Below are positions 17,285 through 24,463 of a DNA stretch of 64,000 nt, in pieces (position 1 is the stretch's first letter; every line of letters starts with the position of its first letter). The stretch is from Bdellovibrio sp. BCCA (GTDB lineage Bacteria; Bdellovibrionota; Bdellovibrionia; Bdellovibrionales; Bdellovibrionaceae), in contig NZ_JBBNAC010000001.1 of NCBI RefSeq assembly GCF_037996825.1, positions 3,348,001 to 3,412,000 of the forward strand. Direction: 5' to 3'. A model generated the notes under the pieces. It saw only the letters and a list, made by a program, of their open reading frames with translations. It made no database searches and had not been told where the DNA came from. The position numbers were made by a program, and so were the translations under genes.

Positions 17285-19012
17285 TTATCCGAACGTAAAT
17301 GCAAAAGCTTCCACATCAGGATCCAAGAATTCAATTTCGAAAGTGTGATCACGAATGTCGCCTACCTCTTTCTGGCGAATCAGTTGATACAAACGATTCT
17401 CTTTGACGACACCCTGACCTTTTTCATCTGCATCCATTCCGTGATCTGCACCAGGCGCCTGCCCATCAATAGTAACACGAAAACGAACCGAGGAACCCGC
17501 TTTATGGGGACCTAAAACCAAATGCAAATCGCGCGCGTGAAAACGGTAAATTATTTTTCCACCCGCTTTTGTCAATGTGGCACTTTCATTGGAAATACTC
17601 CAACGACCAGATAACGTCCACTCGTTGAGCTCCAGATTTTTGACGGCGACATAATTCTCTTCGCGGTCCGGCTTTAATATCGGTGTTAAACGTAGGTTTT
17701 CTGCACGAGCATAACCAATGTAAGTCTCTGGAGATTTTACGTCATTCATTTGCGGAGCCGCTTGCGCCCCCTTCGCTTCGACCTTCACGACATCCGAAGA
17801 TACGGCAAGGGGCCCGCCCTCCTTAAGAAGATCTTGGATGACCATTTCGGATTCTTCATATTGTCCTTCACCAAAGTGATGATGACGAAGACGGCCCTGT
17901 CGATCCAGGAAATAGTGAGCTGGCCAGTAATGGTTATCAAATGAATTCCATATACGATAGTCGTTGTCCATTGCCACAGGATATTTAATTTCAAGTTCTC
18001 TTACGGCTTTTGCAACGTTGTCAGGATCTTTCTCGAAAGCAAATTCGGGAGTGTGCACGCCAATAACCACAAGACCTTGATCTTTGTATTTCTCTGCCCA
18101 AGCTTTTACATAGGGTAGAGCCCGTAGGCAGTTGATACATGAATAAGTCCAGAAATCCACAAGCACGACTTTGCCTTTTAAAGCTTCAAAGGAAAGAGCC
18201 GGAGAATTAAGCCATTGCGTAGCTCCTGCCAAACTGATTGGAAGCGCATTCATGGTTTCTAAATCTGATTTCGTCGTCTCGCTACGTTGCGAATTTTCAC
18301 CGCGGAAAATTTGAATGAGCTTGTTTTCGATGTCTTCCGTTTGAACTTTGGAAATCCTAGTAAGAACTGTGCGATCAAGACCAAAAGTAATCGTTAAAAC
18401 TCCAAGGAGTACCGCGATACCTAGCGCGATTTTTATTTCCCGCTCTGCTTTCAAAGATTTTTTCAATGTTCCTAAAAACTTTCCACCAGCGACAAGTGCC
18501 AGCATCAGCGATGTGGCGGCTCCTAAGGCATAAGCTAAAAGAAACCAAATGGCACTTTGCGTACTTCCTCGAGAAGCCGCTCCGGTTAAAATCAATCCTA
18601 AGATGGGTCCTGCACAAGGAGCCCACAGAAGACCTGTCGCAACTCCTAACAAGAGAGATTTGGAAAAACTTGCTTGGGATTTTGAGCTCTCGCTGAGTTT
18701 TGAACCCCACCGTGTGAACGGTTCAAAGAACCTATCGAAAAACTGTGGAAAGATCAGTGACAAACCAAAGACTGTGAGAAGAACAATGGCAATCCACCGT
18801 CCCCAATTGTTGGCTTGAACAATCCATGCTCCGCCAAGAACCGCCAAACTTGAGAAGACCGCAAAAGTCAGAGCCATTCCCAACAGAAGAGGCAATCCAC
18901 TTTTTCGAAAAGGTTGATCTGCTTTCGCAAAAACAAACGGAATCACCGGAAGAATGCAGGGACTTAAAATCGTTAGAACTCCCCCAATATACGACAGCAC
19001 TAAGAGCCACAT
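17285..19012 (-). CDS. dipZ: DipZ-like CcdA-thioredoxin fusion membrane protein
   Basis: A 575-residue thiol-redox protein. The N-terminal half is a CcdA/DsbD-type membrane domain with paired Cys-Pro motifs (ILSPCILPVIPF and LLWAPCAGPILG) that carry electrons across the inner membrane. A TlpA-like thioredoxin domain follows with CINC in FWTYSCINCLRALP. The last part (about residues 430-575) is a beta-rich domain (YIGYARAENLRLTP) typical of DipZ proteins. Start ATG 19010-19012 has GAGGAG upstream; the longer frame to 19057 adds 15 residues without such a site. It probably feeds reductant for periplasmic thiols or cytochrome c maturation. Confidence 0.88.
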   Translation of the reverse strand: MWLLVLSYIGGVLTILSPCILPVIPFVFAKADQPFRKSGLPLLLGMALTFAVFSSLAVLGGAWIVQANNWGRWIAIVLLTVFGLSLIFPQFFDRFFEPFTRWGSKLSESSKSQASFSKSLLLGVATGLLWAPCAGPILGLILTGAASRGSTQSAIWFLLAYALGAATSLMLALVAGGKFLGTLKKSLKAEREIKIALGIAVLLGVLTITFGLDRTVLTRISKVQTEDIENKLIQIFRGENSQRSETTKSDLETMNALPISLAGATQWLNSPALSFEALKGKVVLVDFWTYSCINCLRALPYVKAWAEKYKDQGLVVIGVHTPEFAFEKDPDNVAKAVRELEIKYPVAMDNDYRIWNSFDNHYWPAHYFLDRQGRLRHHHFGEGQYEESEMVIQDLLKEGGPLAVSSDVVKVEAKGAQAAPQMNDVKSPETYIGYARAENLRLTPILKPDREENYVAVKNLELNEWTLSGRWSISNESATLTKAGGKIIYRFHARDLHLVLGPHKAGSSVRFRVTIDGQAPGADHGMDADEKGQGVVKENRLYQLIRQKEVGDIRDHTFEIEFLDPDVEAFAFTFG

Positions 19013-19190
19013 GATCGTCTCCTCTGCACGAGTCTGTTCTAAGACTACAACTTTCAATTATCCCCGAAAAGTTGTTAAAAACCACAGCATTGCCTAATGA
19101 CGGATTTGGTAAGCTGTCATTTCTGTAGACACCAACCTTGCCTTCTTTTGCAGCCTAACTAGCGGCATACCTTGCATATTTACGTACTTG

Positions 19191-20441
19191 ATGAACCTAT
19201 CTCAGGCATTTCTCATTTTGAGACAATTGATTCTTACGGCTCTGATCGTAGCTGTAGGGGCTTGTTCGTTCAAAAAGGATCCGGAGAAAAATCAACGTCC
19301 ACTGATCCTTATTCAAGAGAAAGAAGTAACTAAGAAGAAACTTACTCTTGAAGAAATTATTTCTCAAGAAAACGAAGAAAAAGCGCTTAAAGAGCTTTCA
19401 GAAATAAGGTTTGCGAAAATCAATGACATCAAAACAACGGATGGCTCACTGCTTGATACAGCCATCAAATTCGATAAAAAGAATATTCTTAATTATTTGC
19501 TTATTCAGGGGCACAGTCCATTCATCATGACTGAAACCACTTACAATAAACTTTCATACTCCGACGAACTAAATAAAATTATCGGAGATGCTCAAAGAGA
19601 TCGATTTATTGGAATCTTGCGCAACTATTCTTCCGAAGAGGAGAACACCAAGTTCAAAAACTCGGTTACCAGTAATAGACTCGGGTTTATTGGTTGCCAG
19701 AATTTTATCAATTTTCTCATGAATCTAAAATATTCTCACCCGGAAAAAGGGAACCCTGGTTACTACTATGAAGTTTTAAAATCTATTCACAATGAAGAGA
19801 TGATCAAAACCGTACTGAAAGAGACTGAGTGCTCCAGTCTCAGTAATAAATTTTCATCGGAAAAGTTGTCTGAGTGGCTTGCGAATGAAATTTTAGACCA
19901 GTTTAGAAGTAACTTTTCGTCGTCAGAATTTTTTGAATTTATTAGCTCTCTTGGGCCCGCAAAAGCCTTATCTATAAATCTTGCCAATAACAATAGAATA
20001 CCGGGTCCCGCATTAGTTAAAATCGACCCTATGTTACTTTTAATGATAAAAAAATCCTGCTTTGATAATGAAGAGTTATTTTTAAAATGGATTTCTTTGA
20101 TAAAAAAACATGTAGACAGGGGAGACGCTACTTATTCATTTAGGTATGTATTTCCAGACGAATTGTCTGAGAATGAAAAAGCCAATTCATGTGAAGGTGA
20201 TCCCGAGTATTGTAGCTCATTTCATGAAAATGCTAACAATATGACTTATGCTTACGGGCTTCTTTTCAAGGCTCAGCACTACGATGATATTTTATATAGT
20301 AGTATTTGGACTAATTTGTCCGAGGAACCGTTAACAGAAGAGGCTGCTAAAATAAAAAAAGAGGTATGCAAATCTTTAAATGAAAAGAGTCAAACTGAGA
20401 GTAAAAATTCTCCCGAAGATTCTGAGGGGGACGGCCTATGA
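19191..20441 (+). CDS. Ankyrin-like lipoprotein 1
   Basis: A 416-residue exported lipoprotein with lipobox VGAC (Cys near residue 25) after a hydrophobic signal. Following a Lys/Glu-rich linker there are one to two degenerate ankyrin repeats (about residues 60-115; DGSLLDTAIKFDKKNILNYL). The remaining 280 residues are helix-rich and unrecognised, with scattered Cys. ATG 19191 directly follows an in-frame TTG; no ribosome-binding site is clear. It overlaps the next gene by ATGA, and both are similar in plan (lipobox plus CSF.KD, ankyrin, about 400 residues), so they are probably diverged paralogues. The gene is markedly AT-richer than the haem operon. A role in restraining DacB is a hypothesis. 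Confidence 0.7.
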   Translation: MNLSQAFLILRQLILTALIVAVGACSFKKDPEKNQRPLILIQEKEVTKKKLTLEEIISQENEEKALKELSEIRFAKINDIKTTDGSLLDTAIKFDKKNILNYLLIQGHSPFIMTETTYNKLSYSDELNKIIGDAQRDRFIGILRNYSSEEENTKFKNSVTSNRLGFIGCQNFINFLMNLKYSHPEKGNPGYYYEVLKSIHNEEMIKTVLKETECSSLSNKFSSEKLSEWLANEILDQFRSNFSSSEFFEFISSLGPAKALSINLANNNRIPGPALVKIDPMLLLMIKKSCFDNEELFLKWISLIKKHVDRGDATYSFRYVFPDELSENEKANSCEGDPEYCSSFHENANNMTYAYGLLFKAQHYDDILYSSIWTNLSEEPLTEEAAKIKKEVCKSLNEKSQTESKNSPEDSEGDGL

Positions 20442-21649
20442 AATTGATATCTATTCTCCTTCTTGTGATACTATTCAACCTAGCCGGATGTTCATTTTCC
20501 AAAGATAAGTCGCCTGCACCTTTGATGCGGACATCTCAAGAGTCGAAGAAAACTCTTTCCGAAACTCAAAAAAACATCCTGACCGCAATAAAAATTAATA
20601 ATCTCAATAAACTCAAAGCAGTTCTCGATTCAGCGCAGCCCCAGGATTTCATTTTCCCGAAGGAAGGCTCAACTCCTATGGGATTGGCTTTGCAAATTGA
20701 TAGAAAAGAGTTTGTAGAGCTGCTCGTTAGCTCTAACGTAGATCCTACGAATTTAGGTGATCAACAGGAAATTTTTAACTCAGTAGTCTACTTAACACAG
20801 ATCCAAAAAATTTATACATCACTGAATTTAACTGAACGGGTCAAAGAAAATAGCGAGACAATGAACGCTTCCCAGACACTCCTTTTCGAAAAGTATTTGA
20901 CGATATTATCTAATGTAACTGCATTAATTGAAAAAAATGATTTCGTAAGCGCCGTAGCCGCTTATCAAAAGACTCCAATAAACTGTGAATTTATGGAGGC
21001 TCAATCCATACTTCTATACATGCAAAACGGACATAAGGATTTCGCTCAAATCGAAAAGTTTCTTTCCAAAATAGATTGTAAATCAAGTTTAAAGAAGTCC
21101 GAGATAGAAGAAATCTATCACGTGGAACTTACAAGACAGTTCCAACGTTTTTTTTCCGACGGTTCCCTACTTTCCTATATAACTCGACATCCGTCTCTTA
21201 CAAGTCTTTTATGGAATATAGACAACTCTGGTTTTTGGGTTTCTCCAAACCTGTTATTCAGGATTGCCTTCGACGAAGAGAATCGTTATCTCACAAAAAA
21301 AAGCAGCTCCGATTTTTGTGAGCCTCCATTCGGACCCGACTTCGAAGGTTGTTACCTAGAAGAAGAAATGAAAACTTATGCCTTTTTTAAGAATAACAAT
21401 ATTTTGCTTCCCGACTACGAGCTTATTCATACAAAAAATGGTTCCATCGTGACAACTTATTCATTTTTCCGTCGCCAAGTTGTCAATTCACAAGATGATT
21501 TTTATGAAAAAGTAAGCTACTTCCTGCATGGAAAAAAAGTTTACTACGACATCGAAGATCCGAACGAACGTGGAACTTACATTCAAGGCACAGTAGAAAA
21601 ACCATGGCAGATAGGTTTCCAAGAAATGGATGACGATGTCGTCGATTGA
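20438..21649 (+). CDS. Ankyrin-like lipoprotein 2
   Basis: A 403-residue lipoprotein with lipobox LAGC (Cys18) and no inner-membrane retention Asp at +2 (Ser follows Cys), so probably outer-membrane anchored. Ankyrin-like repeats cover about residues 45-105 (ILTAIKINNLNKLKAVL, then GSTPMGLALQIDRKEFVELL). The rest is unrecognised and ends in an acidic tail (QEMDDDVVD). ATG 20438 overlaps the preceding stop by 4 bases, so the two lipoproteins are made together. It lies 128 bases upstream of dacB, with an inverted repeat between them. Partnership with the DacB enzyme is inferred from position and from the known ankyrin/DacB pair of Bdellovibrio. Confidence 0.72.
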   Translation: MKLISILLLVILFNLAGCSFSKDKSPAPLMRTSQESKKTLSETQKNILTAIKINNLNKLKAVLDSAQPQDFIFPKEGSTPMGLALQIDRKEFVELLVSSNVDPTNLGDQQEIFNSVVYLTQIQKIYTSLNLTERVKENSETMNASQTLLFEKYLTILSNVTALIEKNDFVSAVAAYQKTPINCEFMEAQSILLYMQNGHKDFAQIEKFLSKIDCKSSLKKSEIEEIYHVELTRQFQRFFSDGSLLSYITRHPSLTSLLWNIDNSGFWVSPNLLFRIAFDEENRYLTKKSSSDFCEPPFGPDFEGCYLEEEMKTYAFFKNNNILLPDYELIHTKNGSIVTTYSFFRRQVVNSQDDFYEKVSYFLHGKKVYYDIEDPNERGTYIQGTVEKPWQIGFQEMDDDVVD

Positions 21650-21666
21650 TGACCTGACAACGTACA

Positions 21667-21706
21667 GTCTCAAAATGTGTCAGTGTCAAATATTGAGACA
21701 TTTGAG
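21667..21706. repeat. Compound inverted repeat upstream of dacB
   Basis: GTCTCAA (21667-21673) and TTGAGAC (21693-21699) are perfect inverted arms. An offset imperfect pairing also exists between CTCAAAATGTGTC (21669-21681) and GAGACATTTGAG (21695-21706). No T-run follows, so an operator or mRNA switch is as likely as a terminator. A good AAGGAG site for dacB lies near 21766. Confidence 0.5.
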
Positions 21707-21777
21707 ATGAAACTGAATGGGTTTCCACAGAGCACAGATTTTGAAAACGTTACAAACTGTTAAAAAGGAGCACGTAG

Positions 21778-23163
21778 ATGGCTAACAGTTTCCTTGTAAA
21801 GAGTATCGTCGCAAGCATCAGCTTTTCATCACTTGTAGCTAGTTCGGCAATGGCTGCTACATATAAAATGAATGCTATGTGCTACCTCCAGGACAAGCAG
21901 TCTGCTCAAGTTAAGGAGTTCAATCCGACACAGCAAGAAATTCGCGACACAGAAAAAGACAGCGAAGTTCGCAATGTTCCAACAAATGTTACAGCAGCAG
22001 ACGTGAACACGAAGTTCCGAGTAGCTTCTCTCTCAAAAATTCTTGTTACTCACTGGGCGGTTGCAACTTTAGGACCTGAATACCGATTCAAGACAAAGAT
22101 TAATGTTACACCAGCCGATGCTGCTAGCAAATCCTGTTATGTACATATCTCCGGCGATCAAGATATTTTCATGGGCAAAGAAATGCTTACCACTGTCTTT
22201 AATCAACTTAAACCTATTCTTGCCAAGCAGAACTGCACCACTATTTCGCAACTCTCTTATGACGAAAAATTTGTAATTCCTTTTTATACAACGAATAATT
22301 TTATTTTCGATCACAGAAAGATTTCTGGATTTAGAGGTAGAGACCCAGAAATGTTCTATGGGCCATTGACGACTCAAAAAGCACTGACATACTTTATTCG
22401 AAACTTCGGTCCTATCTCAGTTAAAACAATTAAACCGGCACGTGCTGCCGAATATAAAAAGTATGCGCAAACTGTACCCGTAAAGACTTATTCATTTAAA
22501 TCACGTCCTCTCTACATGATGATGAGAGAATACAATGCGTATTCATCAAATATTCCACCTAATATTCTTTTTGAAAAGTTAGGCGGTGCAACTGCATACA
22601 GCGCATTTATTAAAAATCGCCTCGGCTTTGATTCATCTAACTTAACGGTCTTAAATGGCTCAGGATATCCTGTTCTTCTAAACAAAGGTCAGGCCAACGA
22701 ACAAAAAGTATACAATGAAGTCACATGCGGGAGTATCGTTCGTGTGATCCAAGATTTAGACCACATGTTGAAGGCATACAAAGGTTCAAAAAACTTTCAA
22801 CTGGCGGATGTTATGGCCGTTGGTGGACCCGACGAAGATTTCTCGACATTTAAGTCACTGTATAGCGATTCAAAATATGATAATACTCTAACGGCGAAAA
22901 CTGGTTCGGCCGAAAAAGCAATTACATTTGGCGGAATGTTATCAACGGCTGATGGACCCCTATATTTTGCGGCTTTGACGGAGCCTGAGGCCTATGAAAA
23001 CTTAGGATCTCCACGCAAATATATCCGTGATTTAGTTTCTATCTTGGCAGATAGACAAAAACTAAAAAAATTCGACTATACTCAAATTGGTCCGATGAAC
23101 CCAACAGACGCTGCGGCGACTCTTGTTGAAGAGAGTACTAATTTATCAACTAAGTTGAACTAG
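21778..23163 (+). CDS. dacB: PBP4-type D-alanyl-D-alanine carboxypeptidase/endopeptidase
   Basis: A 461-residue exported S13 penicillin-binding protein that cuts the D-Ala-D-Ala or D-Ala-mDAP bond of peptidoglycan. A signal peptide ends near AMAA (residue 27). The active-site triad is complete: SLSK at 84-87, SSN at 256-258 and KTG at 374-376. The 172 residues between SLSK and SSN are fewer than in E. coli PBP4, so the inserted accessory domains are reduced, which should open the active site. Bdellovibrio uses such DacB enzymes to round up prey. The ankyrin gene follows after 10 bases, matching the known Bd3459/Bd3460 arrangement. AAGGAG precedes the start. Confidence 0.88.
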   Translation: MANSFLVKSIVASISFSSLVASSAMAATYKMNAMCYLQDKQSAQVKEFNPTQQEIRDTEKDSEVRNVPTNVTAADVNTKFRVASLSKILVTHWAVATLGPEYRFKTKINVTPADAASKSCYVHISGDQDIFMGKEMLTTVFNQLKPILAKQNCTTISQLSYDEKFVIPFYTTNNFIFDHRKISGFRGRDPEMFYGPLTTQKALTYFIRNFGPISVKTIKPARAAEYKKYAQTVPVKTYSFKSRPLYMMMREYNAYSSNIPPNILFEKLGGATAYSAFIKNRLGFDSSNLTVLNGSGYPVLLNKGQANEQKVYNEVTCGSIVRVIQDLDHMLKAYKGSKNFQLADVMAVGGPDEDFSTFKSLYSDSKYDNTLTAKTGSAEKAITFGGMLSTADGPLYFAALTEPEAYENLGSPRKYIRDLVSILADRQKLKKFDYTQIGPMNPTDAAATLVEESTNLSTKLN

Positions 23164-23173
23164 GCAGAACAAT

Positions 23174-23833
23174 ATGATGAAGCTAGACATTTTTATCGCA
23201 GCAGTATTATTCACTTTTAGCTCTGTAAGTTTTGCTGGCGGGGCGAAAGTTGAAGTTTCAAACCAGTTTTCACAAGCATACACCCAAGCATTTGAAGGAA
23301 ACTTAAAATCGTTAAAGAAATTGCTTAGTAAAAAAATCGATATCAACCAAACCAATGAAAATGGCCAAACGATGCTTATGGCAGCGGCGAGCAATGGTCA
23401 CACTGATGTCTTGAATTTTCTAATTGATAAAAAGGCAAATCTTAATACCAAAGATAGTGAACAAAAAACAGCGTTGTATTACGCAATAGACAACGACCAG
23501 ACCGAGGCCGCAAAAATTTTAATCAGCAATGGAGCTGAGCTTGCAAATTTAAATCAATGGAATGACACGGCTCTTATTCTTGCGACATCCGTAAATAACG
23601 GTGAGCTAATGCAATTGCTTCTTAAAAAACAACCCTCTCTCATTAATATAGCTAATAAGAATGGAAAAACACCTTTACTCGAAGCCGCACGTCACGGTAG
23701 TGCAAAGACAATTAAACTATTAATAGATGCTGGTGCAGACCTAAAAGCAAAAAACGACGATGGAAAAACAGCTTTAGAAATTGCTAACAAAGCTCAAAAT
23801 GAAGCAGCTATCAAACTTCTCTCAAAAAAGTAG
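23174..23833 (+). CDS. Periplasmic ankyrin-repeat protein (DacB self-protection type)
   Basis: A 219-residue exported protein: the signal peptide ends at SFA (about residue 21). The rest is five to six ankyrin repeats: GQTMLMAAASNGHTDVLNFL, KTALYYAIDNDQTEAAKIL, DTALILATSVNNGELMQLL, KTPLLEAARHGSAKTIKLL and KTALEIANKAQ. The position directly behind dacB matches Bd3460, reported to bind and inhibit DacB enzymes so that the predator does not damage its own wall while entering prey. ATG 23174 or 23177 are equally possible starts. The repeats are near consensus, unlike those of the two upstream lipoproteins. A terminator follows at once. Confidence 0.88.
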   Translation: MMKLDIFIAAVLFTFSSVSFAGGAKVEVSNQFSQAYTQAFEGNLKSLKKLLSKKIDINQTNENGQTMLMAAASNGHTDVLNFLIDKKANLNTKDSEQKTALYYAIDNDQTEAAKILISNGAELANLNQWNDTALILATSVNNGELMQLLLKKQPSLINIANKNGKTPLLEAARHGSAKTIKLLIDAGADLKAKNDDGKTALEIANKAQNEAAIKLLSKK

Positions 23834-23862: not shown

Positions 23863-24399
23863 TTATTTCGTGCGATCCGGTGTTTTGATTTCACCACAGG
23901 CGATGCGTTTGCCGGAGGCTCCTGAAGGCTGGCTTTCGTAATCGTCGGGGCGTTCGTGAATGATGATGGTCGTGCCGCCTCTTTTAAGCAAAGAATTCGG
24001 GCCTTCTTTCAAAGTCACCATAGTATTGATTTCTTCCGAATGCCCCTGACCATCTCCTTTGACTTCAATATTTTTCAAATCACCTGCGTGAGGTCCGCCT
24101 TTGACATGGCCGTGCTTTTGTTTTTGGCTGGGATTGAAATGCTCACCGGCTGATTTGAAATCGGGACCTTTGCAAACACCCTTTTCATGAAAATGAACTC
24201 CGTACGTTCCTGGAGGCAGCTTCGTTAGATTGATCGTGACTTTAACACCGTCGGTTTCTTGGGTGAGATTGAGATCTCCGACTTGTTCACCTTTTGCGTT
24301 GTTGATGATGACCGCGACAGGTTCAATCACTTTTTGCGCTGCCCACGCGATCGAACCGGAACTGATGAAGACAAAGCAGAGTAAAGAAATTTTTCTCAC
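23863..24399 (-). CDS. sodC: Cu/Zn superoxide dismutase, exported
   Basis: Dismutates superoxide in the periplasm. The mature protein (about 160 residues) has the copper ligands in GVHFHEKGVC, the bridging and zinc ligands in SAGEHFNP and HGHVKGGPHAGD, the Arg-containing C-terminal SGKRIACGEI, and the structural Cys pair. I prefer GTG 24399 as start because GGGAGGG lies just upstream and it gives a clean signal peptide (RKISLLCFVFISSGSIAWA); ATG 24414 would add five residues and place that site inside the gene. It would guard against superoxide during predation or respiration. Confidence 0.92.
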   Translation of the reverse strand: MRKISLLCFVFISSGSIAWAAQKVIEPVAVIINNAKGEQVGDLNLTQETDGVKVTINLTKLPPGTYGVHFHEKGVCKGPDFKSAGEHFNPSQKQKHGHVKGGPHAGDLKNIEVKGDGQGHSEEINTMVTLKEGPNSLLKRGGTTIIIHERPDDYESQPSGASGKRIACGEIKTPDRTK

Positions 24400-24463
24400 G
24401 TAAACCCTCCCCATGACGTCATTGGAACACACGAGGAAATCGGGAGATAATTAAAAATAAGAA

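Follow-up and report, generated by a model that had tools for sequence, protein, structure and literature searches.

Tandem ankyrin lipoproteins beside the Bdellovibrio DacB–ankyrin pair and their association with peptidoglycan enzymes

The Bdellovibrio ankyrin protein Bd3460 inhibits the product of its neighbouring gene, Bd3459, and binds Bd0816 (Lambert et al. 2015, PMC4686830). The same study places the genes for a further ankyrin protein, Bd1180, and for the L,D-transpeptidase Bd1181 in one operon and predicts that the two form a protective pair (Lambert et al. 2015, PMC4686830). Here we analyse a 64,000-nucleotide stretch of a 4.0 Mb Bdellovibrio-type genome (G000:C1:3348001-3412000), referred to as the window. 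Four open reading frames on its + strand, at 19191-23833, encode in order two lipoproteins, LipA and LipB, a DacB enzyme and an ankyrin protein, Ank.

The dacB–ank pair and its chromosomal site

The dacB gene (21778..23163, + strand) encodes an exported S13 DD-carboxypeptidase/endopeptidase. The protein scores 31.5 bits against PF02113 (S13) in Pfam, over a cut-off of 22.8, and retains the intact SxxK, SxN and KTG motifs of an S13 member (S84LSK, SSN256 and K374TG). Its PDB matches are 3v39, 5cec and 5cer; among proteins of solved structure, it is most closely related to the Bdellovibrio endopeptidases Bd3459 and Bd0816. Ank (23174..23833, + strand) forms a canonical ankyrin stack (Ank_2, 1.9e-33) and aligns with Bd3460 (5cea) along its length, over 3-219. 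Like Bd3460, it is exported, composed of ankyrin repeats and encoded directly after dacB at the site between hemH and the DEAD-box helicase gene, and by position it is the orthologue of that DacB inhibitor. Inhibition of the window DacB by Ank is predicted by analogy with Bd3460, for which both binding and inhibition are known (PMC4686830).

Across almost all of the genus genomes examined, 18 kb neighbourhoods show dacB and ank between hemH and the DEAD-box helicase/pcnB genes; the window has the same gene order as Bd3459–Bd3460. By sequence and position, dacB–ank is the orthologous core Bd3459/Bd3460 locus of Bdellovibrio and no recent import, which bears out the original prediction that this is the known pair. 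Sequence identity to that pair is 30-32% for DacB and 38% for Ank. Two DacB subfamilies occupy this site across the genus, one Bd3459-like (26-32% identical to the window protein) and one window-like (46-68%), and the window DacB falls in the second, distinct from Bd3459. One genome, G018, carries both in tandem with one Ank behind each DacB (L102:5758-9900); its window-like DacB (55%) is followed by a window-like Ank (55%), and the remaining Ank (39%) and DacB (40%) stand closer to Bd3460 and Bd3459, respectively. At the level of sequence, this arrangement fits cognate enzyme–inhibitor pairs. The Bd3459-type DacB copy of G018 has a lipobox (LLTSC). A genome-wide S13 search of the window's own genome found only two DacB-type genes (at 3140503 and in the window) against three in strain HD100, and the Bd0816 equivalent is seemingly absent.

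The four genes have a GC content of 36-40%, compared with 43-45% for the haem genes, and the original prediction had read this contrast as a hint that the whole island was acquired. The contrast itself holds, but dacB and ank are AT-richer than their haem and helicase neighbours in 19 of 20 genomes (mean difference, -2.4 points), and their AT-richness is therefore no mark of acquisition. Nor is acquisition of the island as a whole supported: dacB–ank is core, and only the lipoprotein genes are present or absent as a unit.

The gap between lipB and dacB (21650-21777) holds no regulatory hairpin better than those of shuffled sequences (z -0.74). A phage-defence reading of the locus was dropped, as PADLOC returned weak matches only. 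In most genus members, two genes for LrgA/CidA- and LrgB-like membrane proteins, named by eye, lie divergent from dacB (L082:7325-8391 and equivalents); in the window they are replaced by a gene for a DsbD-thioredoxin-like fusion (17285-19057), which adjoins the lipoprotein genes. On the other side, a gene for a SodC-like Cu/Zn superoxide dismutase, also named by eye (23863-24432), follows ank on the opposite strand; among the loci looked at, it occurs there only in the window, G007, G018, G019 and G001.

Architecture and fold of LipA and LipB

The lipA (19191..20441) and lipB (20438..21649) genes lie upstream of dacB on the same + strand and are joined by an ATGA overlap. Both products carry a lipobox (VGA before the lipidated Cys25 in LipA, LAG before Cys18 in LipB) with Ser at +2, a lipoprotein signal of the kind found in NlpI/Lpo-type adaptors. 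In LipA, a degenerate ankyrin region (~49-137) is followed by a helical domain with conserved C169/C214; in LipB, the ankyrin region (~40-110) precedes a conserved C183/C214 domain with ELxRQFQ and WNIDNSG blocks and a variable C-terminus. Profiles of the two align with 99% probability over 249 columns in hhalign, and by this measure LipA and LipB are ancient tandem paralogues.

Taken singly, the two sequences say little about fold: LipA has no Pfam match at E < 0.01, and LipB reaches only a sub-threshold 15.8 bits against Ank_2. An alignment of 32 family members reveals a shared order of CSFxK, ankyrin and a domain with two near-invariant cysteines, with an ankyrin pattern (DGxSLLxVAxxRGNxxILxxLLxxGASPF) that is clearest in distant members, 7 of the 32 matching Ank_2 at E < 0.01 when taken singly. 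The profile of these 32 relatives matches solved ankyrins with E values down to 3e-42 at profile positions of about 45-135, corresponding to about two degenerate repeats in each of LipA and LipB.

AlphaFold models were built from four-row alignments, since searching named genomes with the LipB alignment yielded a single locus. Confidence is found mainly in the N-terminal repeat region, and the C-terminal halves have pLDDT mostly < 50. With VIA-align, residues 39-154 of the LipB model match an ankyrin (Z 8.8, rmsd 2.5 Å, 88 residues), residues 49-137 of the LipA model do likewise (Z 8.8), and the LipA model matches Bd3460 (Z 7.9, rmsd 3.2 Å, 83 residues). VIA-align warns about Z values near this level in repeat proteins, and the argument for an ankyrin fold therefore depends on the sequence profile. 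Plain Foldseek gave no match at E < 0.001 for either model, which leaves VIA-align and the profile as the basis of the ankyrin match. The original prediction had described two overlapping lipoproteins with degenerate repeats near their N-termini; open reading frames, lipoboxes, overlap and, in both models, an ankyrin fold are all present.

Neither protein is, over its whole mature length, a soluble periplasmic ankyrin stack of the Bd3460 type; both have a lipobox and, beyond the ankyrin region, ~280 more residues that include two conserved cysteines. This last portion had been thought to match nothing. No Pfam or PDB match was indeed found for it, but much of it is shared between LipA and LipB and by a genus-wide family.

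A long form of the family consists of single proteins of 811-830 residues with the same lipoprotein/ankyrin start (L163:6238-8673, L165:50-2491 and L173:4012-6504). The same superfamily also includes a single CSFQKxP lipoprotein whose gene follows one for an APP1-like phosphatase at a site conserved in several genomes, the window's own included (L171:6696-8695, L159 and L172).

Distribution of the pairs and their neighbouring enzymes

Searches of 66 family and 369 phylum genomes placed convincing LipA–LipB pairs within the genus only, in 13 of 24 genomes and, by our count, at 11 distinct sites. The pair lies beside dacB in the window and G018 alone, which together make one of these sites, and most genomes have dacB–ank without it. 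A role as dedicated DacB lipoproteins is rejected, with ten of the 11 sites lacking dacB. The original prediction saw in the lipoproteins further immunity factors or DacB regulators. Specificity for DacB is not supported, the pairs occurring away from dacB as a rule, an outcome that the prediction itself had named as refuting; the broader idea of immunity factors or regulators is strengthened in an unforeseen form, with relatives adjoining many kinds of peptidoglycan enzyme.

In HD100 (represented by the HD100-like genome G006), G023 and G002, lipB is followed by the gene for a YcbB-type L,D-transpeptidase (Scaffold 1e-22, YkuD 5e-19, PG_binding_1). By position and neighbour, we infer that the HD100 LipB and this enzyme are Bd1180 and Bd1181. 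HD100 LipB belongs to the same family as the window LipB (32% identity), and the single ankyrin gene named in the earlier work (PMC4686830) corresponds here to the second half of a lipoprotein pair; the window differs in having dacB as the neighbour, and other pairs adjoin other enzymes. A second YkuD-like gene near the HD100 transpeptidase site is, from gene order, probably Bd1176, which is reported to reinforce invaded prey (PMC10482364). A second HD100 pair neighbours an AmiA-like amidase (2e-60). The two pairs of G005 have a NodB deacetylase (Polysacc_deac_1, 3e-25) and, with one small gene between, an SLT transglycosylase (2e-8) as neighbours, and in G009 a single lipoprotein lies beside a YkuD enzyme (1e-18). 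All of these neighbours, like the window DacB, exceed their Pfam cut-offs. Fainter cases are a G016 neighbour (L106:6101-7741) that is NodB-like by motifs alone (AFDG, HAVGH and FRAP) and has no Pfam or PDB match, an SLT-like neighbour of the G018/G020 pair (motifs, and BLAST 2e-6 to an SLT protein) and an SLT-like neighbour of the G012/G021 pair (a weak profile match, 0.011).

We compared adjacency with random placement in five genomes (29-32 enzyme genes each), using five enzyme families defined by Pfam and leaving the three fainter cases uncounted. Six of 12 pairs lie ≤ 1.5 kb from a counted wall enzyme, compared with 0.50 expected, a 12-fold excess for families chosen with the neighbours already in view; a count of six was never reached in 20,000 random placements. 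The two dacB sites represent one event, and merging them gives 5 of 11. We guess that adding other wall enzymes would raise the expectation, to about 1. As a protein, the window DacB exceeds the Pfam cut-off, but in the six-frame search of the genome it falls slightly short; it is included in the count. Proximity to a prey-wall enzyme, as for Bd3460, thus holds in the window and as a statistical rule with some sites excepted.

This enrichment bears on the possibility that a mobile or AT-rich island, functionally unconnected with wall enzymes, has produced the neighbourhood by chance. The cassette is AT-rich at every site and comes or goes as a unit, as such an island might, yet a 12-fold excess is hard to attribute to chance, both dacB–ank and the transpeptidase site belong to the core and exist where the cassette is missing, and no transposase or integrase was noticed among the adjoining reading frames. 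We disfavour this explanation as very improbable.

A more substantial alternative concerns the sign of the action. In enteric bacteria, NlpI, LpoA and LpoB are outer-membrane lipoproteins that act on wall enzymes, NlpI as an endopeptidase adaptor and LpoA/LpoB as PBP activators; NlpI and LpoA have helical repeats. LipA and LipB might likewise be outer-membrane scaffolds or activators that dock wall enzymes and switch them on, the opposite of inhibition. As lipoproteins with short helical repeats, they adjoin enzymes as different as hydrolases, transpeptidases and deacetylases; in L107 a class A PBP is encoded two genes away from the pair; and self-lethality is less obvious for deacetylases and L,D-transpeptidases than for endopeptidases. 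However, NlpI, LpoA and LpoB contain no ankyrins and show no sequence relation to LipA/LipB, whose best fold matches, in models with poor C-terminal halves, are ankyrins, as in the known inhibitor Bd3460. The enteric proteins are also conserved, whereas LipA and LipB change fast, and their local hyper-divergence (below) is unlike that of conserved scaffolds. On balance, we think a scaffolding role unlikely.

Several of the 11 sites have no recognised wall enzyme directly adjoining the pair; at one the neighbour is an RND pump and at another an uncharacterised secreted protein. In at least five genomes, the gene immediately ahead of a LipA/LipB-type pair encodes a member of a secreted family of 441-500 residues (L162:8628-10025, with orthologues in L097, L156, L157 and L158). 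No Pfam match was found for this family, which is possibly a wall enzyme or a partner.

A two-gene cassette within a divergence hotspot

LipA–LipB is a two-gene cassette that, at sites conserved in other respects, is either there as a whole or missing as a whole. At the transpeptidase site, G000, G018, G005 and G012 have an upstream gene of 544 residues and the transpeptidase with no pair between them (in G012 another small gene intervenes), and in HD100, G023 and G002 the pair lies between the two. The dacB site shows the reverse pattern of presence. In a tree of LipA, the copies from the transpeptidase site form a group with that of G016, which lies beside the NodB-like gene (100/99), and the G005 copy from the same NodB site is distant; the same cassette lineage thus stands beside different enzymes.

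The cassette also diverges sharply within conserved surroundings. Between HD100 and G023, none of the 25 orthologues compared at two loci (median about 97%) is as poorly conserved as LipB (77%) and LipA (81%). In the comparison of HD100 with G002, a nucleotide identity of about 90% drops to 39-71% over most of LipA–LipB; it is still 62-81% in the transpeptidase gene and the one that follows, and recovers abruptly to 94-100% beyond them. The signal and ankyrin start of LipA are kept (90-95%) and its tail is lost (20-30%); overall, LipA is 62%, LipB 34-35% and the adjacent transpeptidase 74% identical, with flanks mostly at 95-99%. Similarly, G012 and G021 share 38% in LipA, 35% in LipB and 55% in the SLT-like neighbour, with other flanking genes at 81-95%. 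At the S9 site (G012 versus G022), the pair is 86-89% identical against 96-97% for its neighbours, the adjoining uncharacterised gene included; here the pair is fast-changing and the neighbour is not.

Strong local divergence and block replacement, together with the sites that lack an adjoining wall enzyme, could also describe fast-evolving surface lipoproteins selected by phages, prey or rival predators, with enzyme adjacency reflecting co-expression during invasion only. Such an account sits poorly with enrichment beside several unrelated enzyme families and with the unusual divergence of the adjacent enzyme at two sites (the transpeptidase at 74% and the SLT-like protein at 55%), and we consider it distinctly unlikely. 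A hypervariable block could nonetheless move by recombination without functional coupling.

The reading we lean towards, tentatively, is that LipA and LipB are membrane-anchored partners of prey-directed wall enzymes, probably inhibitors or docking factors, extending the Bd3460 principle. Ankyrin alone is a generic binding fold; an anchored ankyrin partner accounts for fold, lipobox, enzyme range and shared divergence together. In this model, dacB–ank would supply a core predatory endopeptidase with its periplasmic ankyrin inhibitor, and LipA–LipB would be a separate cassette of ankyrin-derived lipoproteins, most likely in the outer membrane and facing the periplasm. Their ankyrin and two-cysteine domains would bind the enzyme encoded alongside: DacB in the window, the L,D-transpeptidase in HD100, and a deacetylase, amidase or lytic transglycosylase elsewhere. 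The bound enzyme would be kept inactive or docked at the predator envelope until release on prey, and this restraint would spare the predator's own wall. We infer the membrane location, binding and inhibition from these comparisons, as we do the choice of DacB as partner in the window. That choice is the least certain step, because Ank already accompanies DacB and the pair is missing from this site in most genomes; for the same reasons, the pair is no needed DacB inhibitor. With somewhat greater reserve, we suggest that genus-specific, hypervariable tandem ankyrin lipoproteins pair and co-diversify with many prey-directed wall enzymes in an effector/immunity-like manner, Bd3460 being the soluble case.

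How a predator keeps its own wall safe while digesting and remodelling that of its prey has been answered for one enzyme class only, Bd3459/Bd0816 with Bd3460. The cassette yields candidate enzyme–partner pairs in HD100: Bd1180/Bd1181, and the lipoprotein pair together with the AmiA-like amidase that it adjoins. Being hypervariable, the cassette would make the wall enzymes of predators resemble effector/immunity pairs, and its occurrence beside varied wall enzymes suggests a wider self-protection kit than the single known case.
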